A DNA stretch of 33,941 nt from an uncultured Erysipelotrichaceae bacterium (GTDB lineage: Bacteria > Bacillota_I > Bacilli_A > RF39 > UBA660), in the NCBI GenBank assembly GCA_902801795.1, contig CADCJQ010000006.1, positions 1 through 33,941 of the forward strand, in the 5' to 3' direction. A model generated the notes under the pieces. That model did no database searches and was not told the DNA's origin. It saw only the letters and a list, made by a program, of their open reading frames with translations. Below are positions 13,124 to 33,544 of the stretch, piece by piece. Numbering within the stretch: the first letter of the stretch is position 1; each line of letters opens with the position of its first letter. Both the position numbers and the translations under genes were made by a program.

Positions 13124-15808
13124 ATGAAAGAAGAAAAAGAGGTTGTTGAGAAGGTAGAAAATAATACAAATAATAATTTGCAAAAGAGAAATAGGTTATG
13201 TATTGTAATAGGTATTGTTATAATCATTATAATAATTTTATTGCTATTACATAGTTGTGGTAATGGTAAAAGATATAAGATAAAATTACATTATGGTAAT
13301 GAATTAGTGGAAGTAGATAAAGATTTTGACTTATCTAAATTAGATGTAGATGGAGGGGAAGTAACTTTCTTAGTTGATAGCAATGGTCATATTGTTGATC
13401 CTAATGGTAAGTTAGATCCAGATAAGGAATATAGTGCTCATGTTGTTCCTAATGGTAAACAAAAAGTAAAAGTAACCTATAAAACCGATAATTCTAGTTT
13501 AGTAGTTGAATATCAAAAAGGAGCTGGTTTATTATTTCCAGAAGATCCTATTAAAAAAGGACATGTCTTTATAGGATGGAAAGATGAAAGTATTGATGAT
13601 TATCCAATTTATATGATGCCAGTTGAACATGATATGGTACTAGTTGCAGTATTTGAAAAGAGTGTAGCAGAAGGGGGAAAATGTAGTTTAAATTGTGATA
13701 CCAATAATGATGGTAAATGTGATGTAAATTGTGATAAAAATGGTGATGGAAAGCCAGATACCAATATTGATACTGATGGTGATGGAAAGCCAGATTTAAA
13801 TGTTGATAAAGATAATGATAACAAATGTGATGTAAATTGTGATATCAATAAAGATGGTAAACCGGATACCAACATTGATAGTGATGGTGATGGAAGTCCA
13901 GATACCAATATTGATATTGATGGCGATGGCAAACCAGATACTAATATTGATACTAATGGTGATGGTAAATGCGATAAGGATTGTAAAGAATATATATTTA
14001 ATGATACATTTCAAGATGAACTATATTTTGATTGTGAAGAGATTGAAATGGGTAATGTAATTGTTTACTTTTCGTTAAATAAAGAAGATGAATTCCTATC
14101 TTCAAAATTTAATGGAAAAGAAGCTAAACCAGATGGTTTTGATAGCTGGGGTTGGCCATATTGGAATTTAGATAAATATATTGAAGCAGGTAAAAATATT
14201 GAAGTTATAATATCCTTTATTAAGACTGATATGACTGGGCAAAAATATTTTATAACACATCATGTGACTTTAGTATTTGAAAAAAATTGTGATAAGAAAG
14301 ATAATACTGAAAAAGAAAATGATGATATACCATCAACCGATGGAAATGTTTTAGAATTAAATTATAATTGTGATACACCACATGGTGTTAAACTTTATTG
14401 GGAAAAAGATAGAATTCAAAGTGTAACAATAGACGGAAAAAAAGCCAATCCTGCAAAGTATAATGAAAAAAATTATCCAACATATGATTTGAGAGAATAT
14501 AAAGGCTCAGGAAAGACAATATACTTAAATGCTAAAGTAACAGATTATGAAAATAAAGATTATGAATTTACTGTTAAATTAGTATTTAGTAATGATTGTG
14601 ATGAACCAAAACAAGAATCACCAGTTAAGACATATACAATAACTTTTGACGCAAATGGAGGAAAAGTAAGTCCTACAAGCAAAACGGTAAAATCCGGTGA
14701 TAAATTGGGAACTTTACCTACTCCAACAAGAAGTGGATATACCTTTGATGGATGGTATATTCAAAGTGGCGCTTATGTTACCGCTAATACCGAGATATAT
14801 TCTGATGGAACAATTTATGCTCATTGGAAGAAAAAAGAAACTCAAGCACCAGTTAAGACATATACATTAACATATAATGCAAATGGTGGAAGTGTAAGTC
14901 CAACAAGTAAAACATTAAACGAAGGAGCTGCTTATGGAAATCTTCCAACACCAACAAGAAGTGGTTATACCTTTGATGGATGGTATACTAATGCTGATGG
15001 TGGTAGTAAAGTAGGTGCAAATACAACAATTAAAGGCAATACAACAATTTATGCACATTGGACAAAGAATGACACGCCAACTCCGGTTAAGACATATACA
15101 TTAACATATAATGCTAATGGAGGAAATGTAAGTCCAACAAGTAAAACATTAAATGAGGGAGCAAGTTATGGAGAGCTTCCAACACCAACAAGAAATGGCT
15201 ATACTTTTGATGGCTGGTTTACAGAATTAACCGGTGGAAATAAAGTTTCAGCAAATACAACAATAAATGGTAACGCCACAATTTATGCGCATTGGATAGA
15301 AATACCACAACAAGATAATGGAACAATTTCATTAACGGCTAGAAGTACATGCTTAATTAAAGGACAAACAACCGCAGTTATCGCAAATGTCAATAATGCC
15401 ATTGATTCTAATGTTGATTGGCTAGCTGATTCTTGTTTATCAGTATCAAGCCAAGGTACTACAGCAACAGTTAGTGGTAATAATTGTGGTGCTCATCCAA
15501 CAATAACGGGAAGACTTCATAATGGTGCCAAAGACACTGTAACCTTTAATTATGAAGATACCTTAACATTTACAGTAACTGATACAAGAGGAAATAGAGT
15601 ATCTCCAGATAATGGAGTATATTATGGAAATGATTTAACCATTACAACAAATATTCCTGCATATATAAAAGGAAGAGGTATATTAGGTGATGAATCAAAG
15701 TTAAGATCTTCAGTAACTACGAATGGTGCAACAGATGCAAATATAACTATAACAACGAATTGTGGACAACAACCCAAAACAATAAAAATTAGTCCAATAA
15801 TCAATTAA
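13124..15808 (+). CDS. Large membrane-anchored surface protein with Asp-rich Ca-type repeats and InlB/Listeria-Bacteroides repeats
   Basis: An N-terminal helix (residues 25-43, a run of Ile/Val/Leu) anchors the 894-aa protein, with the bulk outside. In order: an InlB-like repeat near 115-178 (GHVFIGW); an Asp/Gly repeat region at 187-287 of the form DTNxDGDGKPD and DxNxDGKCDxNCD, resembling thrombospondin type-3 or dockerin calcium loops; two related ~95-residue domains (about 292-392 and 404-498), each with two Cys and ending LVF-x3-CD; three consecutive Listeria-Bacteroides (List_Bact_rpt) repeats from about 503 to 725 with Y-x-[19 protein letters not shown] and IYAHW; and a Cys-containing Ig-like C-terminus. 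There is no LPXTG. An adhesin or matrix-binding role is inferred from the repeats. AGGTAGG precedes the start. Confidence 0.85.
13682..13984 (+). repeat. In-frame Asp/Asn/Gly repeat tract (Ca-loop type)
   Basis: The coding sequence repeats variants of 'GAT-ACC-AAT-ATT-GAT-x-x-GGT-GAT-GG' about eight times, giving [13 protein letters not shown]-like units; two to three units carry Cys (GKCDVNCD). It lies wholly inside the surface-protein gene. Confidence 0.8.
14630..15297 (+). repeat. Three tandem Listeria-Bacteroides repeat units
   Basis: Three copies of about 70-75 codons each encode KTYT-x-T-x-ANGG ... LPTPTR-x-GYTFDGW ... IYAHW. Copies 2 and 3 are very similar also at DNA level (for example CATATACATTAACATATAA in both), which suggests recent duplication. 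Confidence 0.85.
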
Positions 15809-20104: not shown

Positions 20105-20192
20105 AAGGAAATTAAAAATAATAGATATCTAAAGTAGTTGTTTGTTTTTTTCTATTAAATAATAAAAAAAAGATGTACTTTTAAAAAAAATA

Positions 20193-20201
20193 TGATATAC
20201 T
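20193..20201 (+). promoter_or_regulatory. Extended -10 promoter of the moxR-vWA operon
   Basis: TG-A-TATACT at 20193-20201 is an extended -10, 23 bases before the moxR ATG; GGGAGAG serves as ribosome binding site. A clear -35 is absent. No other promoter was seen before 31702. Confidence 0.5.
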
Positions 20202-20224
20202 ATATTTATCGTGGGAGAGTAAAA

Positions 20225-21214
20225 ATGAATGGTAAGAGTGATATAACGCAAAGTGAATTAAGTAAAGCTAATAATATAATTAGTGGTATTTTAAACTATT
20301 ATAAACAAAGAATTGTGGGACAGGAAGAATTAGGTAGATCATTACTCCTTGCACTTATGGCTAATGGTCATATTCTGCTTGAATCGGTTCCAGGTCTTGC
20401 TAAAACAACAGCAGCTAAAATTGTAACAAATGCAGTGTCTGGTGATTTCTCAAGAATTCAATGTACACCGGATTTATTGCCTAGTGATATTATTGGTGGA
20501 CAAATATTTAATTATTCAACTAGTTCTTTTGAAACAAAATTAGGACCTGTTTTTGCTAATTTCGTTTTGTTGGATGAAATAAATCGTTCTAGTGCAAAAA
20601 CACAAAGTGCGATGCTTGAAGCCATGCAGGAACGTCAAACAACAATTGGTGGATTTATGTATAAACTACCAAAGGTCTTTATTGTAATTGCAACACAAAA
20701 CCCGGTTGAACAAGAAGGAACTTATGCCTTAGCAGAAGCACAAATGGACCGTTTCTTAATGAAGGAAGTATTAGATTATCCATCAAGTGATGAGGAAGTT
20801 GAAGTATTAAATCGTCTTGAAGGGGATGTCTTTAGTGATAATAAGCCAATTTTTACATTAATGGATGTATTGTTTTTACAATATTTAACAACTAAAGTAT
20901 ATGTTGATAATAATATTAAAAAATATATTACTATTATTGTTAGTGCTACTAGATTTCCAGAAAGATTTATTGGTCCAGAGCTTGCAAAATATATTACAAT
21001 GGGAGCAAGTACTCGTGCTTCAATAGCATTTATGGAATGTGGTAAGGCAAATGCTTTGATAAATGGAAGAAATTATGTAACACCAGATGATATTAAAGAA
21101 ATAGCAATACGTGTTTTAAGACATCGTATTACACTTTCTTTTGCTGCAACCGCTAATAATATAAAAGTTGAAATGATTATTAATGAAATAATGCGAAAGG
21201 TTCCTACACCATGA
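20225..21214 (+). CDS. MoxR-family AAA+ ATPase
   Basis: MoxR ATPases act with vWA-domain partners as chaperone-like complexes that insert metals or mature and assemble proteins. The Walker A is the family's variant ESVPGLAKTT (53-62), and Walker B is LLDEINRSS with D117/E118. ALAEAQMDRFLMK provides the sensor/arginine-finger region, and QERQTTIGG and IATQNPVEQEGTY are typical MoxR strings. Length (329 aa) is usual. ATG 20225 is set by GGGAGAG upstream. It is cytoplasmic. It overlaps the DUF58 gene by 4 bases (ATGA) and heads an operon containing six vWA genes, the standard moxR neighbourhood. Only one MoxR serves all three downstream cassettes. Confidence 0.95.
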   Translation: MNGKSDITQSELSKANNIISGILNYYKQRIVGQEELGRSLLLALMANGHILLESVPGLAKTTAAKIVTNAVSGDFSRIQCTPDLLPSDIIGGQIFNYSTSSFETKLGPVFANFVLLDEINRSSAKTQSAMLEAMQERQTTIGGFMYKLPKVFIVIATQNPVEQEGTYALAEAQMDRFLMKEVLDYPSSDEEVEVLNRLEGDVFSDNKPIFTLMDVLFLQYLTTKVYVDNNIKKYITIIVSATRFPERFIGPELAKYITMGASTRASIAFMECGKANALINGRNYVTPDDIKEIAIRVLRHRITLSFAATANNIKVEMIINEIMRKVPTP

Positions 21215-22098
21215 AGTTAGATCATATTGGTCGAATAAAAGGAAATATTCAAATTAACACTAAAATTAAATCAGCCAATATTTTAGATGGTTCTTATAGA
21301 TCTATTTTTAAAGGTAAAAGTCTTAATTTTGAAGAACTTCGTGAGTATAATATTGGAGATAGTGTTAAAGATATTGACTGGCGTGCTTCAGCAAGAAGTA
21401 CAAATTTACTAGTAAGAGAATATGTTGCTGAAAAAAAACATAATGTTATGTTTATTTTAGATGGAAAATATTCGATGAATGCCAATTGTAGTGATAAGGA
21501 TTTAAAAAGAGATGTTGCAATCGATGTTGCAGGAACCCTTGCATATTTAGCATATAAAAATGGTGATTATGTTGGTTCAATTTATATGTATCGTGATAAT
21601 CCAGTTTTTTTTCCAGTAAAACAAAGCCTTTTTAATATTGAGAATTTTTTAACATTTTATGATGAAAATATGAAGAGTGCTAAGATTAAAGAAAAATATG
21701 TAAATTCTATTAATGATTCTTTAAAATATGTTACGGATTATTTTAATAAAAAATCAGTGTTCTTTATTATTACGGATTTAGCAGGACTTGAAGAAATTGA
21801 TGATCATTTAATTAGAGCCTTATCACTTAGAAATGATGTAATGATTGTTAATATTGGAGATGTTAGTTTATTTGATAAGAAATCATATGATTTAGATAAG
21901 CGAAAATATTTCTCCCAAATGTTTTTAAAAAACACTAAATTATTAAGACTAGAACAAGAAGAAAAAAGTCGAATATATGAATCATTAGTAAATCGTTTTA
22001 CAAAATATAAAATAACAACAGTTACGATTAATAATCGTGATGATGTTGTTCCTAAGATAATTGAATTATTAGAAAAGCATCGTAATATGGATATGTAA
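21211..22098 (+). CDS. DUF58 protein (vWA-like MoxR partner)
   Basis: DUF58 proteins are vWA-related and nearly always encoded next to MoxR. The hallmark is LREYNIGDSVKDIDWRASAR with D56-W57-R58, followed by LLVREYVAEKKHNVMFILDG, where the DxSxS metal site of true vWA domains is reduced to DGKYSMN. It has no membrane segment, so it should be cytoplasmic and close to MoxR. Length 295 aa is on the short side; many relatives have N-terminal membrane helices that are missing here. It begins inside the stop of moxR, and the next gene starts 13 bases after its stop. Confidence 0.9.
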   Translation: MKLDHIGRIKGNIQINTKIKSANILDGSYRSIFKGKSLNFEELREYNIGDSVKDIDWRASARSTNLLVREYVAEKKHNVMFILDGKYSMNANCSDKDLKRDVAIDVAGTLAYLAYKNGDYVGSIYMYRDNPVFFPVKQSLFNIENFLTFYDENMKSAKIKEKYVNSINDSLKYVTDYFNKKSVFFIITDLAGLEEIDDHLIRALSLRNDVMIVNIGDVSLFDKKSYDLDKRKYFSQMFLKNTKLLRLEQEEKSRIYESLVNRFTKYKITTVTINNRDDVVPKIIELLEKHRNMDM

Positions 22099-22111: not shown

Positions 22112-22564
22112 ATGCAAATAAATAAAGATTTAGAATTACCTTTTGAATATTCATGGAATATTGTAAAACTACTTTTAGCTTTTGTGATTTTAATAATAAT
22201 TGGTTTAATCATATATAAATTTTTATATGATAAAATAAAAAGAATTTCACAACGAATAACTTTGCCATATATAAAGTCATGGTATATAAGAAAATTACAA
22301 AATTTACTATTGGCAGTTACAAATAATAAAATAGAGTTACGTGAAGCATATCTTCAATTGTCTAATATTATTAGAAATTTTATTGCTAAAACAACAGGTA
22401 TTAATGTTTTAAATTTATCTAAGAAAGAGGTAGCAGCATTAAGAATGGACAATTTATCCGCTCTTATGGAAGAATATTATCCACCAGAGTTTTCAAAGTA
22501 TTCAACTGGTGATATTATAAGTTCAATAAGAAAAGCAATGGATGTAATACAAGTATGGAAATAG
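22112..22564 (+). CDS. DUF4381-like membrane protein of the MoxR/vWA operon
   Basis: One membrane helix lies at about 18-39 (WNIVKLLLAFVILIIIGLII). A basic cytoplasmic part follows, in which AYLQLSNIIRNFIAKTTGIN and then LSKKEVAALRMDNLSALMEEYYPPEFS resemble the core of DUF4381 proteins, small membrane partners in Bat-type operons ('...R.f....tG......l...eL'). The call rests on this motif, size and position between DUF58 and the first vWA gene. It could link the cytoplasmic MoxR-DUF58 complex to the membrane vWA proteins (inference). GGAGGAAG precedes ATG 22112. Its last ten bases overlap the start of the following frameshifted gene. Confidence 0.65.
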   Translation: MQINKDLELPFEYSWNIVKLLLAFVILIIIGLIIYKFLYDKIKRISQRITLPYIKSWYIRKLQNLLLAVTNNKIELREAYLQLSNIIRNFIAKTTGINVLNLSKKEVAALRMDNLSALMEEYYPPEFSKYSTGDIISSIRKAMDVIQVWK

Positions 22565-23684
22565 AATTTTTATTTCCACAAATAATTATTTATTCTATAA
22601 TTGTTTCTATTGCTTTTTTATTTTCTTTTAAAAAAAAGATAAATTTAAAAAAGGTATTCTTGTTGCCAATAGTAAATATATAAAAAGAACAAAATTATAT
22701 AAAAAAATAATGCTTAAGTATAGAATATACAACTATTTGATAAAGATAGTATGTATTGTGCTTATTTTTATTTGTGCATTAATGACATCAAGGATGTATG
22801 GTGTTGCTGATCATGAAGAAGTTAATGAAATATATGATAATGCAGATGTGTTTTTTTATATAGAAGAAGTAAATGATCACTATTATGACTTAGGTAATGA
22901 AAGAGTTCAAAAAGATATCAATAAGATAAAAGGATTATTGTCCAAATTAGAAAAAAATAAAGTTGGTATAGTTTATCTTGAAACAACTAATATTGAGTAT
23001 ATGTTGTTAGTTTCGTCACCAATTGTTTTGTCAACTCTTGATATTTATCATGATAACGATAGATATATTTTAGAAAAATATCAAGAAACAAAAGATTATT
23101 ACAACAAAATGTGTAATGAAGATAAATCAATAAAATGTGATGGAAAAATATATATTATTGATAATCCAACATTAGAGGCTTCAAATAAGTTAAAAGGAAG
23201 ACAAAGTGTAATTAATTCTTTTAATTATCTTACATGTTATATGCCTATATGGTCTTCAGAGAAAAATGCCTTTTACAAAACTCATGGTTTTTCTAGCGGA
23301 TATGCTACATATTTAACCGCGCGTGCTGTAGATGCCACTGCTACAAAAATATTATCTACACGAGAAATTTTTGAATTCATTAATAAACGTTTTGAAGAAA
23401 AAAACAGTTCTAAAAAAGTTGTTGTTTGGGCAAAAGATAATTATAATTACGAATATAATAATTTGGAAGATGCTCGAAGATATTGTAAGGAAAATGATAT
23501 TAAACTTTTGGTATTAAATGATTATTCAGAAAATGAAATTTTAACTAAAATAAATAGTTATGATAATAAAATTGTTGAAAAGAAAACAACATCTAAAGAA
23601 AGTGATTATGGTGGAGTATTATTTTCGTTTTTATTATATATCTTTCCACTACTGTTTATTTTAGATTGGAGAGTTAGAATATGA
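22555..23684 (+). pseudogene. Cassette 1 A gene: degenerate vWA membrane protein split by a -1 frameshift
   Basis: ATG 22555 opens MEIEFLFPQIIIYSIIVSIA, matching the start of the A proteins of cassettes 2 and 3, but the frame stops at TAA 22681. The match continues in the -1 frame from 22653 (GILVANSKYIKRT; compare GIIVANTKYV and GILVANTKYV in the other copies) and stays open to 23684. The shift point is A-AAA-AAG at 22647-22653, read in frame as TTA-AAA-AAG. A -1 slip there gives a seamless 376-aa product. The second membrane helix and the C-terminal DWRVRI are kept. The metal site is lost: where copies 2 and 3 have DVSGS, this copy has an EEVNDH-like sequence. A product starting at 22710 would lack the first helix and a ribosome binding site. 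It may be decay, programmed frameshifting or a base-calling error. Confidence 0.75.
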
Positions 23685-24622
23685 ATTTTGATAAATTAAT
23701 CTTTATGCCTTTTGTAGATAAAGAGTTTATGATTAATTTTTCTGTTATCATGTTAATAATTGTTTTAATTAATAGAAAACATATTATTAATAGAATTTTA
23801 ATGATTATTCTTTTATTTATTATAAGCCAACGACCTATAATATTGCAAGAAAATGAACAAGAATCTCAATATGATTCAAAACTTCTAGATATAATTTTTG
23901 TTGTAGATAGAACTGTTAGTATGAATGCTATCGATGTAGATAATAATACAAGATTAGAAGCAATAAAAAAGGATTGTAATAAAATAATAGAGACTTTTCC
24001 GGACTCCTACTATTTATTGATGTTATTTGATACTTTTCCTAACATAGAGTATCCATTAGTTAATGAGATAGGTATTTTAAAAGAAATGATAAATAATATT
24101 GATATTGTTCGACCAAATAATGTAAACGGAGTTGCCACTCTTAAAGCTCCTTATGAAGAATTAAAGAATGTGTTGAAGACTCCTAAACGGGATAGAAATG
24201 TTAAAAGAATCGTTTTTTTTATGTCTGATGGTGAAGTAAATAGTAGTAATAAAGAAGATAAAGATTTTTCCGGTTATAAAGATATCTCATCAATGATTGA
24301 TAACGGAATGGTTATTGGATACGGAACAGCTAGTGGCGCAAAGATTAAAGTTAAAGATACTTTTTTAAATAATGGAAATGCTATTTCTAAAATTGATGAA
24401 AATAATTTGAAAACTTTTGCTAGCAATTTAAAGATAGATTATATACATAGAATAAATAGCAATGATATTGAGAAGAAATTAGAGGATATAAAAAAGATAA
24501 TTGAAAATGATAATACAGATGATAAAATAAATATAAAAGGTGAATTATATAGTTATTTTACTGGAGCGTTATTAGTTTTACTATTATTAGAGTTATTATA
24601 TTACAGGAGAGTTGAACAATGA
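23681..24622 (+). CDS. Cassette 1 B protein: membrane vWA (BatB-like)
   Basis: Two hydrophobic helices at the N-terminus (about 17-29 and 34-47, with NRKHIINR between), a vWA domain from about residue 68, and a C-terminal helix (YFTGALLVLLLLELLYY) before RRVEQ. The metal-ion site reads DRTVSM (D76), a Thr variant of DxSxS, followed by NAIDVDNNTRLEAIKKDC, the family context of BatB proteins ('DVSxSMxAxDVxxxRLExAK'). IVFFMSDGEVN supplies the later Asp. Charge distribution suggests the vWA domain faces outwards. It overlaps both neighbours by 4 bases (ATGA). It is more divergent than the B copies of cassettes 2 and 3. Confidence 0.85.
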   Translation: MNFDKLIFMPFVDKEFMINFSVIMLIIVLINRKHIINRILMIILLFIISQRPIILQENEQESQYDSKLLDIIFVVDRTVSMNAIDVDNNTRLEAIKKDCNKIIETFPDSYYLLMLFDTFPNIEYPLVNEIGILKEMINNIDIVRPNNVNGVATLKAPYEELKNVLKTPKRDRNVKRIVFFMSDGEVNSSNKEDKDFSGYKDISSMIDNGMVIGYGTASGAKIKVKDTFLNNGNAISKIDENNLKTFASNLKIDYIHRINSNDIEKKLEDIKKIIENDNTDDKINIKGELYSYFTGALLVLLLLELLYYRRVEQ

Positions 24623-25377
24623 AAGAAAAAATATTCAAAATATCATTTATAATAATAATAATTTGTGTTTCGATAATTTTAAAAGTTAGTTGCAAAATAA
24701 TAATTAATAAAAGATTTATTGCTAATTATCCTGATTCAAATCAAGCATTTAGATTAATGTTAATATCCATTTTTAATATATATGAACCATACATAGCACC
24801 ATATAATTATGGTAACTATTATTATCAAAAAGAGAGATACGAGCGAGCATATGAAAAGTATAAAAAAGCACTAAGTTATAACGTTCCAAAGAAAAGATTA
24901 TGTTCAATCGATATAAATATTGCATTGTCATTGATTCAACTTGCAAATGATGAAAAAAATGAACAAAAGTCATTAGCGTATTATCAAGAGGCTAAAGATT
25001 ATTTAAGGAAATGTTTAAGTATACAAAAAGAAGAAATAGATGATGATAATGCTGAAGATGATAGTGAAATATTAAATCAACAAAAAAGTGCAGATGATTT
25101 GATTAATGATATTAATAATGAGATAAGTGATAAAAGTAATAGTGGTAATGATAGTGGAAATAATAGTGATGGTTCTAATGGTAGCGGTGGCGGTAGTGGC
25201 GGCAGTTCAGGGAATGAAATTGGTAATGGTGGTCAATCAAATCCTAATGGTAATGGTGAAGGAGAAAGAGACGGAATTGGTAATTCTAAGGGAAAAAATG
25301 ATAAAACAATTGATATTGACATTAAAATTGGTAAACCTAAGGATAGTTTTTCTACTCAATGTGATAATTGTTGGTAA
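24619..25377 (+). CDS. Cassette 1 C protein: membrane TPR protein with Gly/Ser/Asn tail ending CDNCW
   Basis: A basic start and one helix (about 8-28) are followed by IYEPYIAPYNYGNYYYQKER and ERAYEKYKKALSY, a TPR-type helix pair that is nearly the same in all three C proteins, with conserved Cys at KKRLC and LRKC. The linker holds QQKSADDLINDINNEI, also present in cassette 2. The tail is Gly/Ser/Asn-rich and presumably unfolded, then KIGKPKDSFSTQ leads to the final CDNCW. The TPR part should be outside the membrane, as in BatC/BatE-like proteins. It overlaps the B gene by 4 bases, and 20 bases separate it from cassette 2. Role: probable partner of the vWA pair. Confidence 0.8.
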   Translation: MKEKIFKISFIIIIICVSIILKVSCKIIINKRFIANYPDSNQAFRLMLISIFNIYEPYIAPYNYGNYYYQKERYERAYEKYKKALSYNVPKKRLCSIDINIALSLIQLANDEKNEQKSLAYYQEAKDYLRKCLSIQKEEIDDDNAEDDSEILNQQKSADDLINDINNEISDKSNSGNDSGNNSDGSNGSGGGSGGSSGNEIGNGGQSNPNGNGEGERDGIGNSKGKNDKTIDIDIKIGKPKDSFSTQCDNCW

Positions 25378-25397: not shown

Positions 25398-26426
25398 ATG
25401 GAAATGATGTATCCAGAATTAATTGTTTATTCTATAATTGGTGCATTTTTAATATTATTTGTATGGCGAAAAAGAAAAAAATTTAAAAATGGAATTATTG
25501 TTGCCAATACAAAATATGTTAAAAAAACACGATATTATAAATCATTAATGCTTAAATATCGTATATATAATATCTTAATTAAAGCTGTTTGTGTTTTATT
25601 GATTATTACATGTGCTATTTTAACTGCTAGAATATATAAAACGGATAAGGAAGAAAAAGAAGAATATAATCGTGATATCATGTTGTGTATGGATGTATCG
25701 GGTTCTGTTTGGGATTTAGATGAAGAAATAATAGATACTTTTATTGATCTTGTTTCAAAACTTAAAGATGAAAGATTTGGACTATCGGCATTTGATAGTT
25801 CTCCAGTTAATATAATACCATTAACTACTGATTATAATTATGCAATAACGGTATTAAAAGAATTAAAAAAATGTTTTGAAAATTATCATAAATATGCTAT
25901 AAAAACGTCTACAGGTAGAATTTATACTAATACTTTAGAAGAACATGGCTTGGTAGTTAATCCTGTTCATGAAATGTTTGAAGGTGCCTTTAATGGTGAT
26001 GGCTCAAGTTTAATTGGTGAAGGACTTGCATATTGTGCATCAACATTTAAGAAAGATGATGATCGAACTAAAATTGTTATATTGACAACTGATGATGATG
26101 TTGAAGGAAGTCAAATTATTTCTGTTCCAGAAGCAGCTAATTATAGTAAATCAGTTGATGTTAAAGTATATCCTATTGGAACCAAGTCTATAAAGAGTGC
26201 TCAACGTCAAGAACTTATTGAAGTTGCTAATATAACTAATGGAAATTATTATGATTTTAGCTCTGTTTCTACAAGCGATATTGTGGATAGAATACAAAAA
26301 TTGAATAAAACAGCAATTGTGAAAAATGTTGCAGTAACTAAAAAGGATTTGCCTGAAATAATAGTACCATATTTGTTTTATATTCTTCCGGCTTTATTTG
26401 TTTTAGAATGGAGAGTTAGAATATGA
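25398..26426 (+). CDS. Cassette 2 A protein: membrane vWA (BatA-like)
   Basis: Helix 1 lies at about 8-22 (IVYSIIGAFLILFVW). A strongly basic loop (RKRKKFKNGIIVANTKYVKK) follows and should be cytoplasmic, then helix 2 at about 58-78, then a vWA domain. Its metal site is intact: IMLCMDVSGSV with D99, S101 and S103, the Thr position at GDGSSLIGEGLAYC, and the Asp at VILTTDDDVEG. A C-terminal helix (VPYLFYILPALFVL) ends EWRVRI. The topology puts the vWA domain outside. It has AGGTAGTG as ribosome binding site and overlaps gene B2 by 4 bases. Length 342 aa is close to BatA proteins of aerotolerance-type operons. Confidence 0.88.
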   Translation: MEMMYPELIVYSIIGAFLILFVWRKRKKFKNGIIVANTKYVKKTRYYKSLMLKYRIYNILIKAVCVLLIITCAILTARIYKTDKEEKEEYNRDIMLCMDVSGSVWDLDEEIIDTFIDLVSKLKDERFGLSAFDSSPVNIIPLTTDYNYAITVLKELKKCFENYHKYAIKTSTGRIYTNTLEEHGLVVNPVHEMFEGAFNGDGSSLIGEGLAYCASTFKKDDDRTKIVILTTDDDVEGSQIISVPEAANYSKSVDVKVYPIGTKSIKSAQRQELIEVANITNGNYYDFSSVSTSDIVDRIQKLNKTAIVKNVAVTKKDLPEIIVPYLFYILPALFVLEWRVRI

Positions 26427-27397
26427 GTTTTTTTAGTGATTTAATATTTAAACCAATTATTCCTTTTTCAACTGCTATAATATATGGTATTATATTAATA
26501 TTAATTGTGTTATTTAATAAAAGAAATGTTATATTAAGAATATTAATAATTCTTTTAATGATTATAGTTAGTCAAAGACCTATGTTGAAAAATAGGGATG
26601 ATAAAGTATATAATATGGATTTAGATGTAATATTTGTTATTGATAATACTGTAAGTATGAATGCTATAGATGTTAATGGTAGAAGTAGATTAGATGCTTT
26701 AAAAAGTGATTGTAAGCACATTATTGATAGATTTTTAGGAGCTAATTTTGCAATTATTACGTATGCTAATAATGCTCAAATAAAATATCCATTTACAAGT
26801 GACGTAGCAATTATTGAAGATATTATTGACAGAATGAAAATAATTGATCCTAATTATGCTAAAGGATCGGCTCTTGATTTACCATATGATTATATGAAAA
26901 TGTTATTAGAATCTTCTCGTAGTAAAGATAAACATAGAACACTTGTCTTTTTTATGGGTGATGGTGAATTAACCATTGCAGAAGCATTCAATACAGATGT
27001 ATCTAAGTATCAGAACTTGAAAGATATGATAGATGCTGGAGGAGTTCTTGGCTATGGAACTCCTGAAGGTGGGAAGATTAAAATAACCGATAGTATTGTG
27101 AAAAAAAATTTAGTTAATAATGAAGGATATTTAATAAATTCTAAAGATGGAAGTGTTGTGCTTTCTCGAATTAATGAAAACAATTTAAATATACTAGCAT
27201 CAAACTTAGGCATTGATTATTACCATATGACAGATTTTTCTGTCCTTGCAGATAAAATTAATAAGATAAAAGATGAAGCGAATGAAAATGATGAAGGAAA
27301 AGAAAAACTAGATAAAGATATATATTATTATTTTTCAGGTGCATTATTGATTCTTTTGTTAATAGAATTATTTTATTGTAGGAGGAATGAGCAATGA
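26423..27397 (+). CDS. Cassette 2 B protein: membrane vWA (BatB-like)
   Basis: Two N-terminal helices are joined by the short basic loop FNKRNV. A vWA domain with metal site IDNTVSM (D74) and NAIDVNGRSRLDALKSDC follows, with VFFMGDGELT as later acidic motif, and a C-terminal helix (YYFSGALLILLLIELFY) before CRRNEQ. SQRPMLKN right after helix 2 is shared with cassette 3. The vWA domain is predicted outside. It overlaps A2 and C2 by 4 bases each (ATGA), so the three proteins are probably made in equal amounts. It is closely similar to B3 and less so to B1. Confidence 0.87.
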   Translation: MSFFSDLIFKPIIPFSTAIIYGIILILIVLFNKRNVILRILIILLMIIVSQRPMLKNRDDKVYNMDLDVIFVIDNTVSMNAIDVNGRSRLDALKSDCKHIIDRFLGANFAIITYANNAQIKYPFTSDVAIIEDIIDRMKIIDPNYAKGSALDLPYDYMKMLLESSRSKDKHRTLVFFMGDGELTIAEAFNTDVSKYQNLKDMIDAGGVLGYGTPEGGKIKITDSIVKKNLVNNEGYLINSKDGSVVLSRINENNLNILASNLGIDYYHMTDFSVLADKINKIKDEANENDEGKEKLDKDIYYYFSGALLILLLIELFYCRRNEQ

Positions 27398-28725
27398 ATA
27401 AAATATTAAAAAAAGTAATTATATTTGTTATTTCTACTTGTTTAATATTGGCAGCAATATTTAGTGGCAAAATATATATTAATAAAAAATTTATTGATAA
27501 TTATCCAACAGAAGATCAAGAATATCGTTTAGTTTTATTATCAATATTTAATGTTTATGAACCATATATAGCACCATATAACTATGGTAATTATTTATAT
27601 CAAAAAGGTAAATTTGAAGATGCCTATAATAAATATAAAGATGCACTTCAATATAAAATACCTAAAAAAAGAGTTTGCTCTGTTAGAAAAAATATTAGTC
27701 TTGCTTTAATTAAAATGTCAGAAAATCAAGATAAGGAAAAATCATTACAATTGTTAAATGAAGCATTAACTCATTTAAATGTATGTATGAGCTTGAATCC
27801 TAATACTACAGAAGAGGAAGATGAAAAATTAGCAGAAGAAGAAAAAAAGAATCAACAAGGACAACAAGGTCAGCAGGGACAACAAGGTCAACAGGGACAA
27901 CAAGGTCAACAGGGACAACAAGGACAGCAAGGACAGCAAGGACAACAGGGACAACAGGGACAACAAGGTCAACAGGGACAGCAAGGTCAACAGGGACAAC
28001 AAGGTCAACAAGGACAACAAGGTCAGCAGGGACAACAAGGTCAACAAGGACAACAAGGACAACAAGGTCAACAAGGACAACAAGGTCAACAGGGACAACA
28101 AGGTCAACAAGGACAACAAGGTCAACAAGGACAACAAGGTCAACAAGGTCAACAAGGACAACAAGGTCAACAAGGACAACAAGGTCAACAAGGACAGCAA
28201 GGTCAACAAGGACAGCAAGGTCAACAAGGACAGCAAGGTCAACAAGGACAACAGGGACAACAGGGACAACAGGGACAACAAGGTCAACAAGGACAACAGG
28301 GACAACAGGGACAACAAGGTCAACAAGGACAACAGGGACAACAGGGACAACAGGGACAACAGGGACAACAGGGACAACAGGGACAACAAGGAGAATCTGG
28401 AAGTGACATTGCTAGTCAACAACAAGGTGCACAAGATTTGATAAATGATATTAATAATAAAATAAATGATATTCAAGGTAATAATAATAGCAATTCTAAT
28501 AGCAATTCCAATGGTAATTCTCAAGGTAATGCGAATGGACAATCTTCTAGTCAAGGAAATTTACCATCTGATAAACAAATGGATGATTTAATGAACAAAG
28601 CTAACAAATCGAATCAATCAAGAGATGATTCAAAATCTAATCGCAGTAACGCACCTGGAACAGGCAGTAGTAATGGAGGAAGTTTTGATACGAGGGACTC
28701 AACTGGCTGTATTGATTGCTGGTAA
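27394..28725 (+). CDS. Cassette 2 C protein: membrane TPR protein with (QQG)60 tract and CIDCW end
   Basis: The first ~150 residues match the other C proteins: basic start, one membrane helix (about 8-27), YEPYIAPYNYGNYLYQKGKF, the TPR pair FEDAYNKYKDALQYKIPKKRVC and LNVCMSL. An acidic-Lys linker then leads into 180 residues made only of Gln-Gln-Gly units (codons 154-333). After that comes ESGSDIASQQQGAQDLINDINNKIND (as two blocks, the second shared with C1), an Asn/Ser/Gly stretch and the terminal CIDCW. The protein is 443 aa, much longer than C1 because of the tract. The tail is probably extended or collagen/glutenin-like and outside the cell. Function of the tract is unknown. Confidence 0.83.
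   Translation: MNKILKKVIIFVISTCLILAAIFSGKIYINKKFIDNYPTEDQEYRLVLLSIFNVYEPYIAPYNYGNYLYQKGKFEDAYNKYKDALQYKIPKKRVCSVRKNISLALIKMSENQDKEKSLQLLNEALTHLNVCMSLNPNTTEEEDEKLAEEEKKNQQGQQGQQGQQGQQGQQGQQGQQGQQGQQGQQGQQGQQGQQGQQGQQGQQGQQGQQGQQGQQGQQGQQGQQGQQGQQGQQGQQGQQGQQGQQGQQGQQGQQGQQGQQGQQGQQGQQGQQGQQGQQGQQGQQGQQGQQGQQGQQGQQGQQGQQGQQGQQGQQGQQGQQGQQGQQGQQGQQGESGSDIASQQQGAQDLINDINNKINDIQGNNNSNSNSNSNGNSQGNANGQSSSQGNLPSDKQMDDLMNKANKSNQSRDDSKSNRSNAPGTGSSNGGSFDTRDSTGCIDCW
27853..28392 (+). repeat. (CAR-CAR-GGN)60 in-frame tract encoding (QQG)60
   Basis: Sixty consecutive 9-base units (540 bases) encode Gln-Gln-Gly without an amino-acid exception. Synonymous third-base changes (CAA/CAG, GGA/GGT) are common and create higher-order 18-base units such as GGTCAACAAGGACAGCAA, repeated three times in a row around 28190-28245. 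T occurs only in the GGT codons. Confidence 0.95.
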
Positions 28726-28740
28726 AAAGGAGAATAAAAT

Positions 28741-29730
28741 ATGGAAATAAAAACAATGTATCCACAAATAATTGTATATTCTTTAATAATATCAGTACTT
28801 ATTTTGTTTGTATGGCGTAAGAAAAATAAGTTTAAAAAGGGAATACTTGTTGCGAATACAAAATATGTTAAAAATACCAAATATTACAAAAAATTATTAT
28901 TTAGATATCGTGTATATAATATTGTTATTAAATTAGTATGTATTGCATTAATTATAATAAGTTCCATATTAACATCTAGATTATATGAAACTAAAAATCA
29001 TGAAGAAGAATTCAATAATAGAGATATCATGTTATGCATGGATGTATCTGGTTCAGTAAAGCCTTTAAATAAAGATATAATTAATACATTGAAAGAAACG
29101 GTTTCTAAATTAAAAGATGAAAGGTTTGGTATCGCGGCTTTTAATAGTTCTCCTGTAATGATTCTTCCACTTACGACTGATTATAATTATGCATTAAGTG
29201 TTCTTGATATGATATCGGCGGCTTTAGGAAATGATGTTAAAGTTCCATATAGTCAAAATTATGTTAACCAATTTATTAGTTTAGGAACAGCAAGTGGAAA
29301 TAGAGGTTCAAGTTTAATTGGTGATGGACTTGCATATTGTTCATCAACATTTCAAAAAGATGATAATCGAACTAAAATAGTAATATTAACAACAGATAAT
29401 GAAGTTGAAGGAAGACAAATAATTAATGTTCCAGAAGCAGCAGCATTTAGTAAGGCAAACGATGTAAAAGTATATCCAATAGGTACAAAAACAATAAGAC
29501 CAGAAAAAAAACAAGAAATGGTGGATATTGCGACGGTGACTGGTGGTGTATACTATGATTATGCTAATTATTCAACAAATGATATAGCTAAAAAAATAGA
29601 AGAACTAAATAAAACAGCGATTGTAAAGAATGTGTATGTAACAAGGAAGGATTTGCCTGATTTATCTTTTGTATATTTATTGTATATTATTCCAATTTTG
29701 TTGATTTTAGATTGGAGAGTTAGAATATGA
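28741..29730 (+). CDS. Cassette 3 A protein: membrane vWA (BatA-like)
   Basis: The layout equals A2: helix 1 (about 10-23), basic loop with KKGILVANTKYVKNTKYYKK, helix 2 (about 57-78), vWA domain with intact metal site IMLCMDVSGSV (D101, S103, S105), Thr/Ser site RGSSLIGDGLAYC and Asp site VILTTDNEVEG, then a C-terminal helix and DWRVRI. The segment between the two acidic motifs (about 155-190) differs most from A2, so the binding face of the two copies probably differs. Ribosome binding site AAGGAG lies upstream. It begins 15 bases after C2 and overlaps B3 by 4 bases. Length is 329 aa. Confidence 0.88.
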   Translation: MEIKTMYPQIIVYSLIISVLILFVWRKKNKFKKGILVANTKYVKNTKYYKKLLFRYRVYNIVIKLVCIALIIISSILTSRLYETKNHEEEFNNRDIMLCMDVSGSVKPLNKDIINTLKETVSKLKDERFGIAAFNSSPVMILPLTTDYNYALSVLDMISAALGNDVKVPYSQNYVNQFISLGTASGNRGSSLIGDGLAYCSSTFQKDDNRTKIVILTTDNEVEGRQIINVPEAAAFSKANDVKVYPIGTKTIRPEKKQEMVDIATVTGGVYYDYANYSTNDIAKKIEELNKTAIVKNVYVTRKDLPDLSFVYLLYIIPILLILDWRVRI

Positions 29731-30695
29731 GTAATTTAATATTTAATCCGATGATATCTTTAAGCATAATGATTCCATATTCAATAATTATGATTGTCAT
29801 AATAATACTTAATAAAAAAAATATTATTAATCGAATAATAATTATTTTGCTTATATTAGTTATCAGTCAAAGACCAATGTTAAAGAATCAAGAAGACATT
29901 ACTTTTAGTCTAGATTTGGATGTATTATTTGTTATTGATAATACTGTAAGTATGAAAGCTGATGATGTTAATAAGCAAACGAGACTTGAAGCAGTAAAAA
30001 AAGATTGTATATCGATTATGGAAAAATATGCTGGTGCTAATTTTGCTGTTATAACATTTGGTAATATTGCAGAAGTAAGGTATCCATTTACCAGTGATAT
30101 GGGAATAATTAAAGATGTAATAAATAGAATAAAAGTAATAGATCCAGCATATGCAACAGGATCAGTATTGGAATTACCATATGATTTTATGAAAATGTTT
30201 TTAGAATCGTCTAAAAGTAAAGATAAACATCAAAGAATTGTCTTTTTTATGGGAGATGGAGAAGTAACACAAGAGGATGATAAAACTAAACTTGCTAAAT
30301 ATGCAGACCTTCAAGAATTAATAGATAGTGGAGCGGTTTTAGGATATGGTACTAGTGAAGGTACTAAAATAAAAATAGAAGAAAGTGTTGCTTTAAAATA
30401 TGTTGCAGATAGTAATGGTTATTTATTAGATTCAACTACTAATCCACCTTCAATAGCAATTTCTAAAATTAATGAAAATACTTTAAAGGCATTAGCGACT
30501 AATTTAGATTTAGATTATTATCATATGACAGATTTTTCTATACTAAACGATAAATTAGATAATATAAAAGGTGAAGCATTAGAAAATGAAGAAGAAAAAG
30601 AAAAATTAAATAAAGATATTTATTACTATTTTTCGGGTGCGTTAGTTGTATTATTATTATTTGAATTATACTATTATAGGAGAAATGAACAATGA
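29727..30695 (+). CDS. Cassette 3 B protein: membrane vWA (BatB-like)
   Basis: Two N-terminal helices are joined by NKKNIINR, with SQRPMLKNQE after the second. The vWA domain starts near 60 with FVIDNTVSM (D71) and KADDVNKQTRLEAVKKDC, and VFFMGDGEVTQ is the later acidic motif. A C-terminal helix (YYFSGALVVLLLFELYY) precedes YRRNEQ. It is very similar to B2 over the whole length, including YHMTDFSIL near the C-terminus, which B1 lacks. The vWA domain is predicted outside. Four-base overlaps join it to A3 and C3. Confidence 0.87.
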   Translation: MSNLIFNPMISLSIMIPYSIIMIVIIILNKKNIINRIIIILLILVISQRPMLKNQEDITFSLDLDVLFVIDNTVSMKADDVNKQTRLEAVKKDCISIMEKYAGANFAVITFGNIAEVRYPFTSDMGIIKDVINRIKVIDPAYATGSVLELPYDFMKMFLESSKSKDKHQRIVFFMGDGEVTQEDDKTKLAKYADLQELIDSGAVLGYGTSEGTKIKIEESVALKYVADSNGYLLDSTTNPPSIAISKINENTLKALATNLDLDYYHMTDFSILNDKLDNIKGEALENEEEKEKLNKDIYYYFSGALVVLLLFELYYYRRNEQ

Positions 30696-31702
30696 ATAAA
30701 ACAGTGAATAAAACAGTGAAAAAAATTATTATAATTATTATATGTGTATGTATACTTGTTACGGCAAAAGTGATGGCTAAGATAATAATTAATAATAGAT
30801 TTATTGCAAATTATCCTGATGCTGATCAAGAATATCGTTTGGTTCTTTTATCAACACTTAATTTATATGAGCCATATATAGCACCATATAATTATGGTAA
30901 TTATTTATATCAGAAAGGACGATTTGAAGAAGCTTATGTTAAATATAAAAATGCATTAAAGTATAAAATTCCTAAAAAAAGATATTGTGATGTAAAGATA
31001 AATATAAGTTTAACATTAATAAAACTATCAGAAGATGAAAAAATAAGTAACGAGCAATCGCTTGAATATTTAAAAGAAGCTCAAAAACATTTAAATCAAT
31101 GTTTAATGCTTAAGCCTGATGAAGAAGATTTTGATGAAGATGACTTAATTGCTGATCCAGAAGGTGCTGGCAATGAAGGTGTTGGTAATGAAGGTGATGG
31201 TGACGAAGACAGTGGCGAAGGGGGCCATGATGGTCAAGATGATAATGGCAAAAGCGATGGCGAAAAAAGCGATGGCGAAAAGAGCGATGGTGAAAAGAGC
31301 GATGGCGAAAAAAGCGATGGCGAAAAAAGCGATGGCGAAAAAAGCGATGGCGAAAAAAGCGATGGCGAAAAAAGCGATGGCGAAAAAAAAGATGGCGCTG
31401 GTCAAGTAAAAGACAAGCAAGGTAAAGCCAAGGATTTGGCTGGAGAAGTTGGTAATGAAATTAAAGAAAAAGAAGGAAAAGAAAATTCTGGAAATAAGCA
31501 AGGGGAAAGCGAATCTAAGGGTGAAACTGGAGATGGACAAAATATTTCTAATATGCCAACTCAGGAACAATTAGATGAACTAAATAAAACTTCTGATAAG
31601 GCTCAAAATGATAGAGAAGCTGCATTGACAAGTGGTAATAATACAGAGGTTAAAAATACGCAAGATGAAACGAATATACCATCATGTAAAAAATGCTTAT
31701 AA
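30692..31702 (+). CDS. Cassette 3 C protein: membrane TPR protein with Lys-Ser-Asp-Gly-Glu repeats and CKKCL end
   Basis: The N-terminal ~150 residues are the shared scaffold: basic start (MNKTVNKTVKK), one membrane helix, LYEPYIAPYNYGNYLYQKGRF, the TPR pair FEEAYVKYKNALKYKIPKKRYC and LNQCLML. The tail is different: an acidic block (DEEDFDEDDLIADPEGAGN), a Gly/Glu/Asp stretch, then ten five-residue units (nine KSDGE and one KKDGA), then a Lys/Glu-rich helical part (KQGKAKDLAGEVGNEIKEK) that may correspond to the DLINDINN block of C1/C2. The end is IPSCKKCL, keeping the CxxC of the other two but with Leu last. It is the last gene of the operon and is followed by a strong terminator. Confidence 0.82.
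   Translation: MNKTVNKTVKKIIIIIICVCILVTAKVMAKIIINNRFIANYPDADQEYRLVLLSTLNLYEPYIAPYNYGNYLYQKGRFEEAYVKYKNALKYKIPKKRYCDVKINISLTLIKLSEDEKISNEQSLEYLKEAQKHLNQCLMLKPDEEDFDEDDLIADPEGAGNEGVGNEGDGDEDSGEGGHDGQDDNGKSDGEKSDGEKSDGEKSDGEKSDGEKSDGEKSDGEKSDGEKSDGEKKDGAGQVKDKQGKAKDLAGEVGNEIKEKEGKENSGNKQGESESKGETGDGQNISNMPTQEQLDELNKTSDKAQNDREAALTSGNNTEVKNTQDETNIPSCKKCL
31250..31399 (+). repeat. Ten 15-base in-frame units encoding KSDGE
   Basis: Ten tandem units of AAA-AGC-GAT-GGC-GAA type. The last four complete KSDGE units are identical in DNA, and the tenth unit is changed to KKDGA. The GGC and AGC codons are unusual against the AT-rich background (GGT/AGT elsewhere), which points to expansion from a single unit. 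Confidence 0.93.
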
Positions 31703-31779: not shown

Positions 31780-31800
31780 TTTTTATATGAGGTGTATTAT

Positions 31801-32397
31801 ATGAAAAAAGTATTTATTATTATGACATTAATTTTTATTGTTACTGGTTGTAAAAGTTTATTTACTTATGAAAATGAAAAAATTGAATATTTAAAGGGGA
31901 AATATAATGTTGAAATGAAAATTAAAGATTATGGAATCATTGAAATGGAACTTGATGCAGATGTTGCACCAATTACAGTTACTAATTTTATGAATTTAGT
32001 TAAAGAAGAATTTTATAATGGTAATACTATTCATCGAGTAATGAAAGATTTTGTAATTCAAGGTGGAACGGATATTTCAAATACTCATAAAGAAATCAAA
32101 GGTGAATTTGATGCCAATGGAGTTAGTAATGATATTAGTCATGTTCGAGGTACAGTTTCCATGGCAAGAGCTGGTGATCAAAATAGTGGCTTTGATACAG
32201 CATCAACACAATTTTTTATCGTACAAAAAGATAGTACATTTTTAGATCACTATTATGCAGGATTTGGAAAAGTTACTAAAGGAATGGATGTTGTTGATAA
32301 GATTTGTAATAGTATTAAATCATCTGATGAAAATGGTACAATAATGGATGATGATGAAGTACCATTAATAGAATATATAAAAGAGATAGAAAAGTAG
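31801..32397 (+). CDS. Cyclophilin-type peptidyl-prolyl isomerase, lipoprotein
   Basis: The signal peptide MKKVFIIMTLIFIVTGC ends in a lipobox (V-T-G-C17), so the enzyme is anchored on the outer face of the membrane. The cyclophilin domain shows APITVTNFMNLVKEEFYNG, then IHRVMKDFVIQGGT (catalytic Arg of the HRV-x-x-x-F motif), RGTVSMARAG and STQFFIVQKD. It should speed cis-trans isomerisation of prolines in exported proteins. Length (198 aa) is normal. Start 31801 is chosen from GAGGTG and the lipobox distance; GTG 31792 overlaps that site. It is followed 7 bases later by the rhomboid gene, with which it is probably cotranscribed. Confidence 0.93.
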   Translation: MKKVFIIMTLIFIVTGCKSLFTYENEKIEYLKGKYNVEMKIKDYGIIEMELDADVAPITVTNFMNLVKEEFYNGNTIHRVMKDFVIQGGTDISNTHKEIKGEFDANGVSNDISHVRGTVSMARAGDQNSGFDTASTQFFIVQKDSTFLDHYYAGFGKVTKGMDVVDKICNSIKSSDENGTIMDDDEVPLIEYIKEIEK

Positions 32398-32404
32398 GGA
32401 TAAA

Positions 32405-33544
32405 ATGAATGTACAAATAAGTGAGAGAGATTTAATTTCAATGAAACTTCTTCATTATTTTATAACGAAAAAAAATTATTCTCCAATAATTGTTCAAGGT
32501 GTTGAAAATGAAATATGGATTCAAAATTTAGATGCAGATAAATATAAAGTGATTCGTATTGTAAATGGGTATATTCATAATGATGAACAACTAGAATTTG
32601 ATGTTTTTAAGACGAAAAGAATGGTAAAAAAAATAAGAAAAAAAACCTTTAGTTTAAAAATGAAAACGTTAAATATTTTAACTGATGTTGGAGAAAATGT
32701 TGATCGTGAAAAAAAATTTGATGATGTTGATATAATATATTATACGGACGAAGATAATTTATTAAAAAATGAAATAATAAAGAGTGAATTTAAAGATTTA
32801 AAAGATAATTTAACATATACAGAAGAAGGTTTTAATCTTTTCTTTAAAATTACACAAGATATTAATATGAAAAATAATAAAGAAAATATGGAAGCAGAGA
32901 AAATATTAGAGCCTAAAAAACCAATTGTAACTTTTATTATTATTGGAATACTTGTTTTAATGTTTTTTATGCAGTTTATTTTTACACCTATTGAATTATT
33001 ATATTATTTGGGTGTACAAAAAGATTTAGTTAGATATGGAGAAATATATCGCCTTTTAACGGGAGCCTTTTTACATCTTGATATTTTACATTTATTATGT
33101 AATTTGTATGCTTTATATGTTGTTGGAAAATTAAGTGAGAGTTATTTTGGTAAATGGAAATTTACTTTAATATATTTATTTAGTGCACTAACAGGAAGTT
33201 TGTTATCGATTTCAATGGGGGATAATTTTTCAATAGGTGCGAGTGGTGCTATCTTTGGTCTTCTTGGAAGTTTATTGTATTTTGGATATCATTATCGTGT
33301 TTATTTTGGAAATGTTTTATTAAAACAAATAGTTCCCGTCATTATTTTTAATTTAGCAATAGGTTTTATGATTGATGATATTGATAATTTTGCGCATATT
33401 GGTGGATTAATAGGTGGTTTATTAATTAGTAAAGCGGTTGGTATTAATAGTAAAGATAAGAAAAGTGATAAGATAAATGGCATTATTTTATCAGTAATTT
33501 ATTTAGCCTTTTTAATATTCTTAGCCTTTTTTATGGAGCGTTAA
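32405..33544 (+). CDS. gluP: GluP (YqgP)-like rhomboid intramembrane serine protease
   Basis: The first ~165 residues are a soluble cytoplasmic domain (MNVQISERDLISMKLLHYF), as in Bacillus GluP/YqgP. The rhomboid core follows: first helix from about 177, GAFLHLDILHLLCNLYAL with the HxxxN oxyanion motif, the catalytic Ser in GASGAIFG (S280) and the catalytic His in FAHIGGLIGGLL (H331). About seven membrane helices are present, and a last one ends the protein. The Bacillus enzyme takes part in membrane-protein quality control with FtsH; the C-terminal TPR domain of the Bacillus protein is absent here (379 aa). Its last base is the first base of the dnaI start codon. Confidence 0.9.
   Translation: MNVQISERDLISMKLLHYFITKKNYSPIIVQGVENEIWIQNLDADKYKVIRIVNGYIHNDEQLEFDVFKTKRMVKKIRKKTFSLKMKTLNILTDVGENVDREKKFDDVDIIYYTDEDNLLKNEIIKSEFKDLKDNLTYTEEGFNLFFKITQDINMKNNKENMEAEKILEPKKPIVTFIIIGILVLMFFMQFIFTPIELLYYLGVQKDLVRYGEIYRLLTGAFLHLDILHLLCNLYALYVVGKLSESYFGKWKFTLIYLFSALTGSLLSISMGDNFSIGASGAIFGLLGSLLYFGYHYRVYFGNVLLKQIVPVIIFNLAIGFMIDDIDNFAHIGGLIGGLLISKAVGINSKDKKSDKINGIILSVIYLAFLIFLAFFMER

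Follow-up and report, generated by a model that had tools for sequence, protein, structure and literature searches.

What keeps a pair of cysteines at the very end of three proteins whose tails have otherwise drifted apart? The question is raised by a window of 33,941 nucleotides, one contig of a draft genome of 1.51 Mb and 71% completeness, in which three paralogous proteins, here called C1, C2 and C3, end CDNCW, CIDCW and CKKCL, respectively. These ends had been reported in a first-pass annotation and were confirmed by translation and codons at 25360-25374 (C1; stop TAA 25375-25377), 28708-28722 (C2; stop 28723-28725) and 31685-31699 (C3; stop 31700-31702), these tips and all the operon genes described below lying on the + strand. 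The positions proposed earlier were right to within one codon; with the stop included, the C2 and C3 tips occupy 28708-28725 and 31685-31702, and that of C1 25360-25377. A single protein would end CxxC[WL] with a chance of about 1.2e-5 given the composition of the window, so that the three ends are beyond chance.

Genes and layout of the locus

C1, C2 and C3 are BatC-like TPR subunits of a triplicated Bat-type operon (MoxR-DUF58-vWA-vWA-TPR), whose gene order from 20192 is MoxR, DUF58, a 150-aa membrane protein and then BatA-BatB-C three times in tandem. The MoxR AAA+ ATPase at the operon head (20192-21214; PF07726, E = 6.4e-58) is followed by the DUF58 protein (21211-22098; PF01882, E = 2.4e-25) and by the 150-aa membrane protein (22112-22564), which had no Pfam match above cut-off and was placed by position in the slot held elsewhere by DUF4381 proteins. 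The end of this small protein, WK, WN, WH or W, is itself conserved across the family. The first set comprises BatA1 (22710-23684), BatB1 (23681-24622; PF13519) and C1 (24619-25377), the second BatA2 (25398-26426; PF00092), BatB2 (26423-27397; PF13519) and C2 (27394-28725), and the third BatA3 (28741-29730; PF00092), BatB3 (29727-30695; recognized by alignment and profile search) and C3 (30692-31702). The two adjacent membrane vWA proteins of a Bat operon are found here, by PF13519 or PF00092 in A2, A3, B1 and B2 and by profile in B3, and the B and C frames share bases at their stop and start codons, as in BatB1 and C1. The MIDAS is present in every complete BatB and lost in BatA1 and in the BatA of contig C60, both of which are without any detectable vWA signature, BatA1 having neither a vWA match nor DxSxS. 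The BatA N-terminal domain PF07584 gave zero matches in the whole source genome, with positive controls. Directly after C3 and on the same strand, the gene order of the operon neighbourhood continues with genes for a cyclophilin lipoprotein and a rhomboid protease (31792-33544), with no BatD gene.

A tie between the Bat (Bacteroides aerotolerance) operon and oxygen and stress tolerance dates from 1999, and to our knowledge no mechanism has been described for it. BatC of that operon (NF047507, TPR_BatC_Lepto) resembles the C proteins in following directly on BatB and in combining TPR with a charged or Q-rich disordered tail and a terminal Trp, whereas the C proteins have a weaker TPR, an invariant Cys pair inside it and the Cys pair before the Trp; the operon differs as well, with three tandem A-B-C sets and no BatD seen in it. 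No C protein matched NF047507 at E <= 0.01, but the model is specific to Leptospira, and Bacteroides BatC, too, falls well short of its cut-off. The BatB-TPR fusions of Gammaproteobacteria and Leptospira biflexa, the latter described as a BatB-BatC fusion (PMC3557215), also consist of vWA, TPR and tail, with terminal Trp in Vibrio, Catenovulum and Pseudoalteromonas; they form one chain and have no tip Cys pair, whereas here vWA and TPR are encoded apart, in two genes whose stop and start codons overlap.

Anatomy of the C proteins

The C1 reading frame comprises an N-terminal transmembrane helix, a TPR domain and a disordered tail. In the AF2 model (six sequences) the membrane helix is followed by helices with high pLDDT at residues 59-133, while the tail (185-252) has pLDDT below 50 and is disordered, the tip within it reaching about 30. 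The Pfam TPR match in C1 is weak and below cut-off, and Foldseek returned generic TPR-domain matches (best E 6.5e-3), the closest solved folds including CHIP and RPAP3, TPR domains that bind C-terminal peptides. The weak Pfam match, the helical hairpins of the model, the Foldseek matches and the start-stop overlap together place a TPR domain directly downstream of BatB. Cys95 (24901-24903) and Cys132 (25012-25014) of C1 are invariant in 17/17 C proteins of the family and sit on helices that pair with each other in the model, as expected for a disulfide, which probably closes the TPR domain. The positive N-termini predict that this domain lies outside the membrane, and it would then be extracytoplasmic; published work on Borrelia established a periplasmic location, beyond the inner membrane, for the vWA domain of a Bat vWA protein (PMC5700661).

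The tails of C1, C2 and C3 consist of different repeats, and the first-pass annotation had described them as unrelated low-complexity sequence. They do differ, C3, identified like C2 as a C1 paralog by translation and comparison, carrying KSDGE repeats, but they are not altogether unrelated, as the motif QQxAxDLxxxI recurs in 8/9 tails of the genus (0-0.05% of shuffles). It reads QQKSADDLINDI in C1 (25078-25113), QQQGAQDLINDI in C2 (28417-28452) and KQGKAKDLAGEV in C3 (31415-31450). The C2 tail also holds 59 consecutive Gly-Gln-Gln triplets (27859-28389), a collagen-like Gly-X-Y series with a Pfam Collagen match and without proline.

Conservation of the tip and of its last residue

Three more C paralogs of the source genome end CDNCW, CQGCW and CNHCW, so that the Cys pair is kept in 6/6 paralogs and the terminal Trp in five, C3 having Leu. 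One of the six, on contig C72, is an orphan that is flanked by opposite-strand genes, has no BatA or BatB beside it and keeps the tip. Its gene (L049, 946-1974) adjoins nusB and xseA, and its product carries a further pair of tail Cys, residues 304 and 313; the third C gene of the sister genome (L149, 2-502) precedes mraZ, rsmH, nusB and xseA, which hints at synteny shared with the orphan.

Among the remaining ORFs of 150 aa or more in the loci examined, not one ends in a Cys pair. A wider search for CxxCW, as had been proposed, found no ORF longer than 60 aa with such an end in the source genome apart from the C paralogs, and a pattern scan of four same-genus genomes gave none; these scans were confined to the CxxCW spacing, the first one also taking in the Leu codon TTG. 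A genome-wide sorting signal was rejected on this distribution. The hydrophobic segment and basic tail that would follow the motif in a cell-wall sorting signal are lacking, the proteins stopping right after the tip. Lipidation of the CaaX type, which we know of in no bacterium, was rejected for its misfit of spacing.

The TPR regions of the six paralogs are only about 47-60% identical (against the reference), their tails are unlike, and the tip codons differ among C1, C2, C3 and the copies labelled C60 and C17, yet the tip is kept, and its retention by selection is the natural reading of these sequences. It is very improbable that the paralogs have the tip in common only as a legacy of recent duplication, with no present function: they do descend from one ancestor, and the 18 bases of tip DNA are identical in C1 and C72, but with TPR regions so diverged, branches of 0.3-0.9 per site in the BatB+C tree, and different tails and tip codons, all six still keep both Cys. 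The earlier proposal that a kept tip implies function gains support from this retention, the orphan included, and from the probable age of the Cys pair.

That age was approached through the sister species, in which two of the three C copies are recent duplicates ending NIRH and KTNY, with neither Cys pair nor Trp. The third leaves its contig inside a QQGG repeat, and contig C26 opens with a QQGG repeat in a frame that ends CKEHCW; the shared repeat and frame suggest that both pieces belong to a single gene. The idea that the tip is simply absent from the sister species was rejected on account of this copy. Homologs without the terminal pair, named in the first-pass annotation as the finding that would count against it, turned up in part, two of the three sister copies being without the pair and the third having CxxxCW instead of CxxCW. 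In the BatB+C tree the sister-species copies nest within the paralog group beside C2 and C3 (support 93/93), a placement by which the Cys pair probably arose before the two species diverged and disappeared from one sister duplicate pair. The sister genome also has a fourth BatA-BatB copy (L100, 11157-12463) that is cut off by the contig end, beyond which any C protein of this copy would lie.

Further out, the operon is rare in the family (10/386 genomes), and among 295 phylum-wide genomes BatB occurred only in the family of the source organism. Eight C proteins from more remote members of the family lack the tip Cys; they end DKW, KTW, KPW, KNY, KKW, KRW, KRW and KSW. No relatives of the C proteins were found in viral contigs. 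On the sequences compared, the Cys pair is confined to the genus.

The terminal Trp has a far wider distribution. From a Cetobacterium BatB found in a plasmid collection we reached Bat operons of Bacteroidota, Spirochaetota, Pseudomonadota and Fusobacteriota, in which TPR proteins or BatB-TPR fusions end SENRW, LERNW, TEKEW, LEKDW, LDKDW and LDKNW, and also VTQPW, TDQPW, TGKKW, REVFW and AEKSW; by name, Bacteroides has LEKDW, Leptospira EVFW, Vibrio DQPW and Cetobacterium ENRW. Outside the genus, Trp closes the disordered tail of 19/23 Bat TPR proteins, spread across five phyla, compared with 3/249 background ORFs that end in Trp (at least 150 aa, in the loci examined), a comparison that ignores kinship, as the 23 proteins are relatives; in none of the 23 does a Cys pair stand at the C-terminus. 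The distribution among the five phyla, on tails otherwise unconserved, is nonetheless clear. Terminal Trp is not universal, being missing in Legionella (GWNQ, with W at -3), Rhizobium and Sinorhizobium. Judged from this distribution, the terminal Trp is an old and widespread element and the Cys pair an addition at genus level, and the emphasis first laid on CxxC was misplaced, the deeply conserved residue being the Trp. Our literature searches turned up nothing on Bat proteins that end in Trp.

A proposed docking tip with a dithiol, and other readings

The reading that we favour, with a probability of about one half, is that the tip is a membrane-tethered Trp docking element for the Bat vWA complex, to which the genus has added a dithiol, likely a redox-sensitive loop. 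The C protein would be anchored by its N-terminal membrane helix, hold a small TPR domain outside the membrane and extend a long disordered tether, the end of which would act as docking tip with the C-terminal Trp as its conserved residue. The likeliest receptor would be the vWA domain of the partner BatB, since BatB and C are translationally coupled here and fused in other bacteria, and since BatB has kept the MIDAS that BatA1 has lost; the free carboxylate beside the Trp would suit the MIDAS site or an adjacent pocket. Against a docking tip speak the orphan, which keeps the tip without an adjacent BatB, the Leu of C3 and the two sister copies that end in H and Y.

As for the two Cys placed just before the Trp in the genus (CxxC or CxxxC), they would most likely close as a small disulfide loop or open as a dithiol, making the docking redox-sensitive. 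None of the Cys columns of BatA, BatB, DUF58 and the small protein follows the tip Cys pair in its distribution. A mixed disulfide with any of these proteins was rejected on this account, and the covalent linkage to a Bat partner that had been among the options first listed is disfavoured for the same reason. This result, the spacing of 2 or 3 and a compartment that seems disulfide-permissive lead us to prefer a redox loop. Thioredoxin-like CxxC oxidoreductases share with the tip two Cys two residues apart, but the tip has no thioredoxin fold, is disordered, varies in spacing and lies at the extreme C-terminus; the varying spacing makes a strict role of that kind unlikely, which counts against the favoured reading. 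So does the search for a DsbD/CcdA electron relay, which found none in five genomes of the genus, and an extracytoplasmic electron relay was rejected as far as DsbD/CcdA is concerned. The sole Redoxin match in the source genome is a thioredoxin-like frame of 111 residues. The Bat system has been linked to oxidative and thermal stress (PMC3557215; PMC11834572), which makes a redox role plausible.

A bolder version, which we consider doubtful, would make the C-terminal Trp a general docking code of Bat TPR subunits, turned here into a thiol switch, with oxidation of the Cys controlling whether the tail docks on the vWA complex; Bat assembly would then read the extracytoplasmic redox state directly. 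In either form, a terminal Trp on Bat TPR tails of five phyla would offer a single-residue handle, in cultivable bacteria, on how the TPR subunit engages the complex, and the Cys-pair variant a possible link between this engagement and the redox state.

The main rival to the redox loop, unlikely in our estimate, is metal binding, in which the two Cys, with or without the terminal carboxylate or the Cys of a second tail, would hold zinc, copper or iron, and the tails would crosslink or deliver metal in line with metal-inserting MoxR/vWA systems. Two reports (PMC9976466; PMC13036017) describe NorQ/NorD as such a MoxR/vWA pair driving metal insertion, and it resembles the present system in joining an AAA+ ATPase with a vWA partner, whereas the present vWA proteins sit in the membrane, are predicted to face outward and are accompanied by a TPR subunit. 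Two-Cys coordination would suit both CxxC and CxxxC, and six different C proteins per cell could pair; but each tip has just two Cys, no conserved His lies nearby (one copy reads CNHCW), and the widespread state is a terminal Trp without Cys.

Other readings concern the terminal peptide as a whole. TPR clamp domains receive the C-terminal peptide of Hsp90, and in a similar manner the tip could be held in the TPR groove of an adjacent C protein, so that a head-to-tail chain of C proteins would form. CHIP and RPAP3, among the closest solved folds, both bind C-terminal peptides, and with TPR domain and tip on one protein the orphan copy would still have partners; the Foldseek matches are nevertheless to generic TPR, and the charged residues of a clamp would have to be present as well. 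We regard such chaining as quite unlikely. We think it rather improbable, too, that the free C-terminal Trp is read by a housekeeping protease, a PDZ protein or another factor for quality control or maturation. The exact C-terminal position in many phyla and the rhomboid protease and cyclophilin lipoprotein genes after the operon would fit such a signal, but a hydrophobic segment or LPXTG-like signal before the tip is absent, BAM-type C-terminal signals are a feature of outer-membrane barrels, a class to which the C proteins do not belong, CxxCW occurs on no other source-genome ORF longer than 60 aa, and the rhomboid gene lies outside the annotated Bat operons examined. Elsewhere in the window, at 13124-15808, an 894-aa protein with Listeria-Bacteroides (InlB B-type) repeats is encoded, likely a surface protein.
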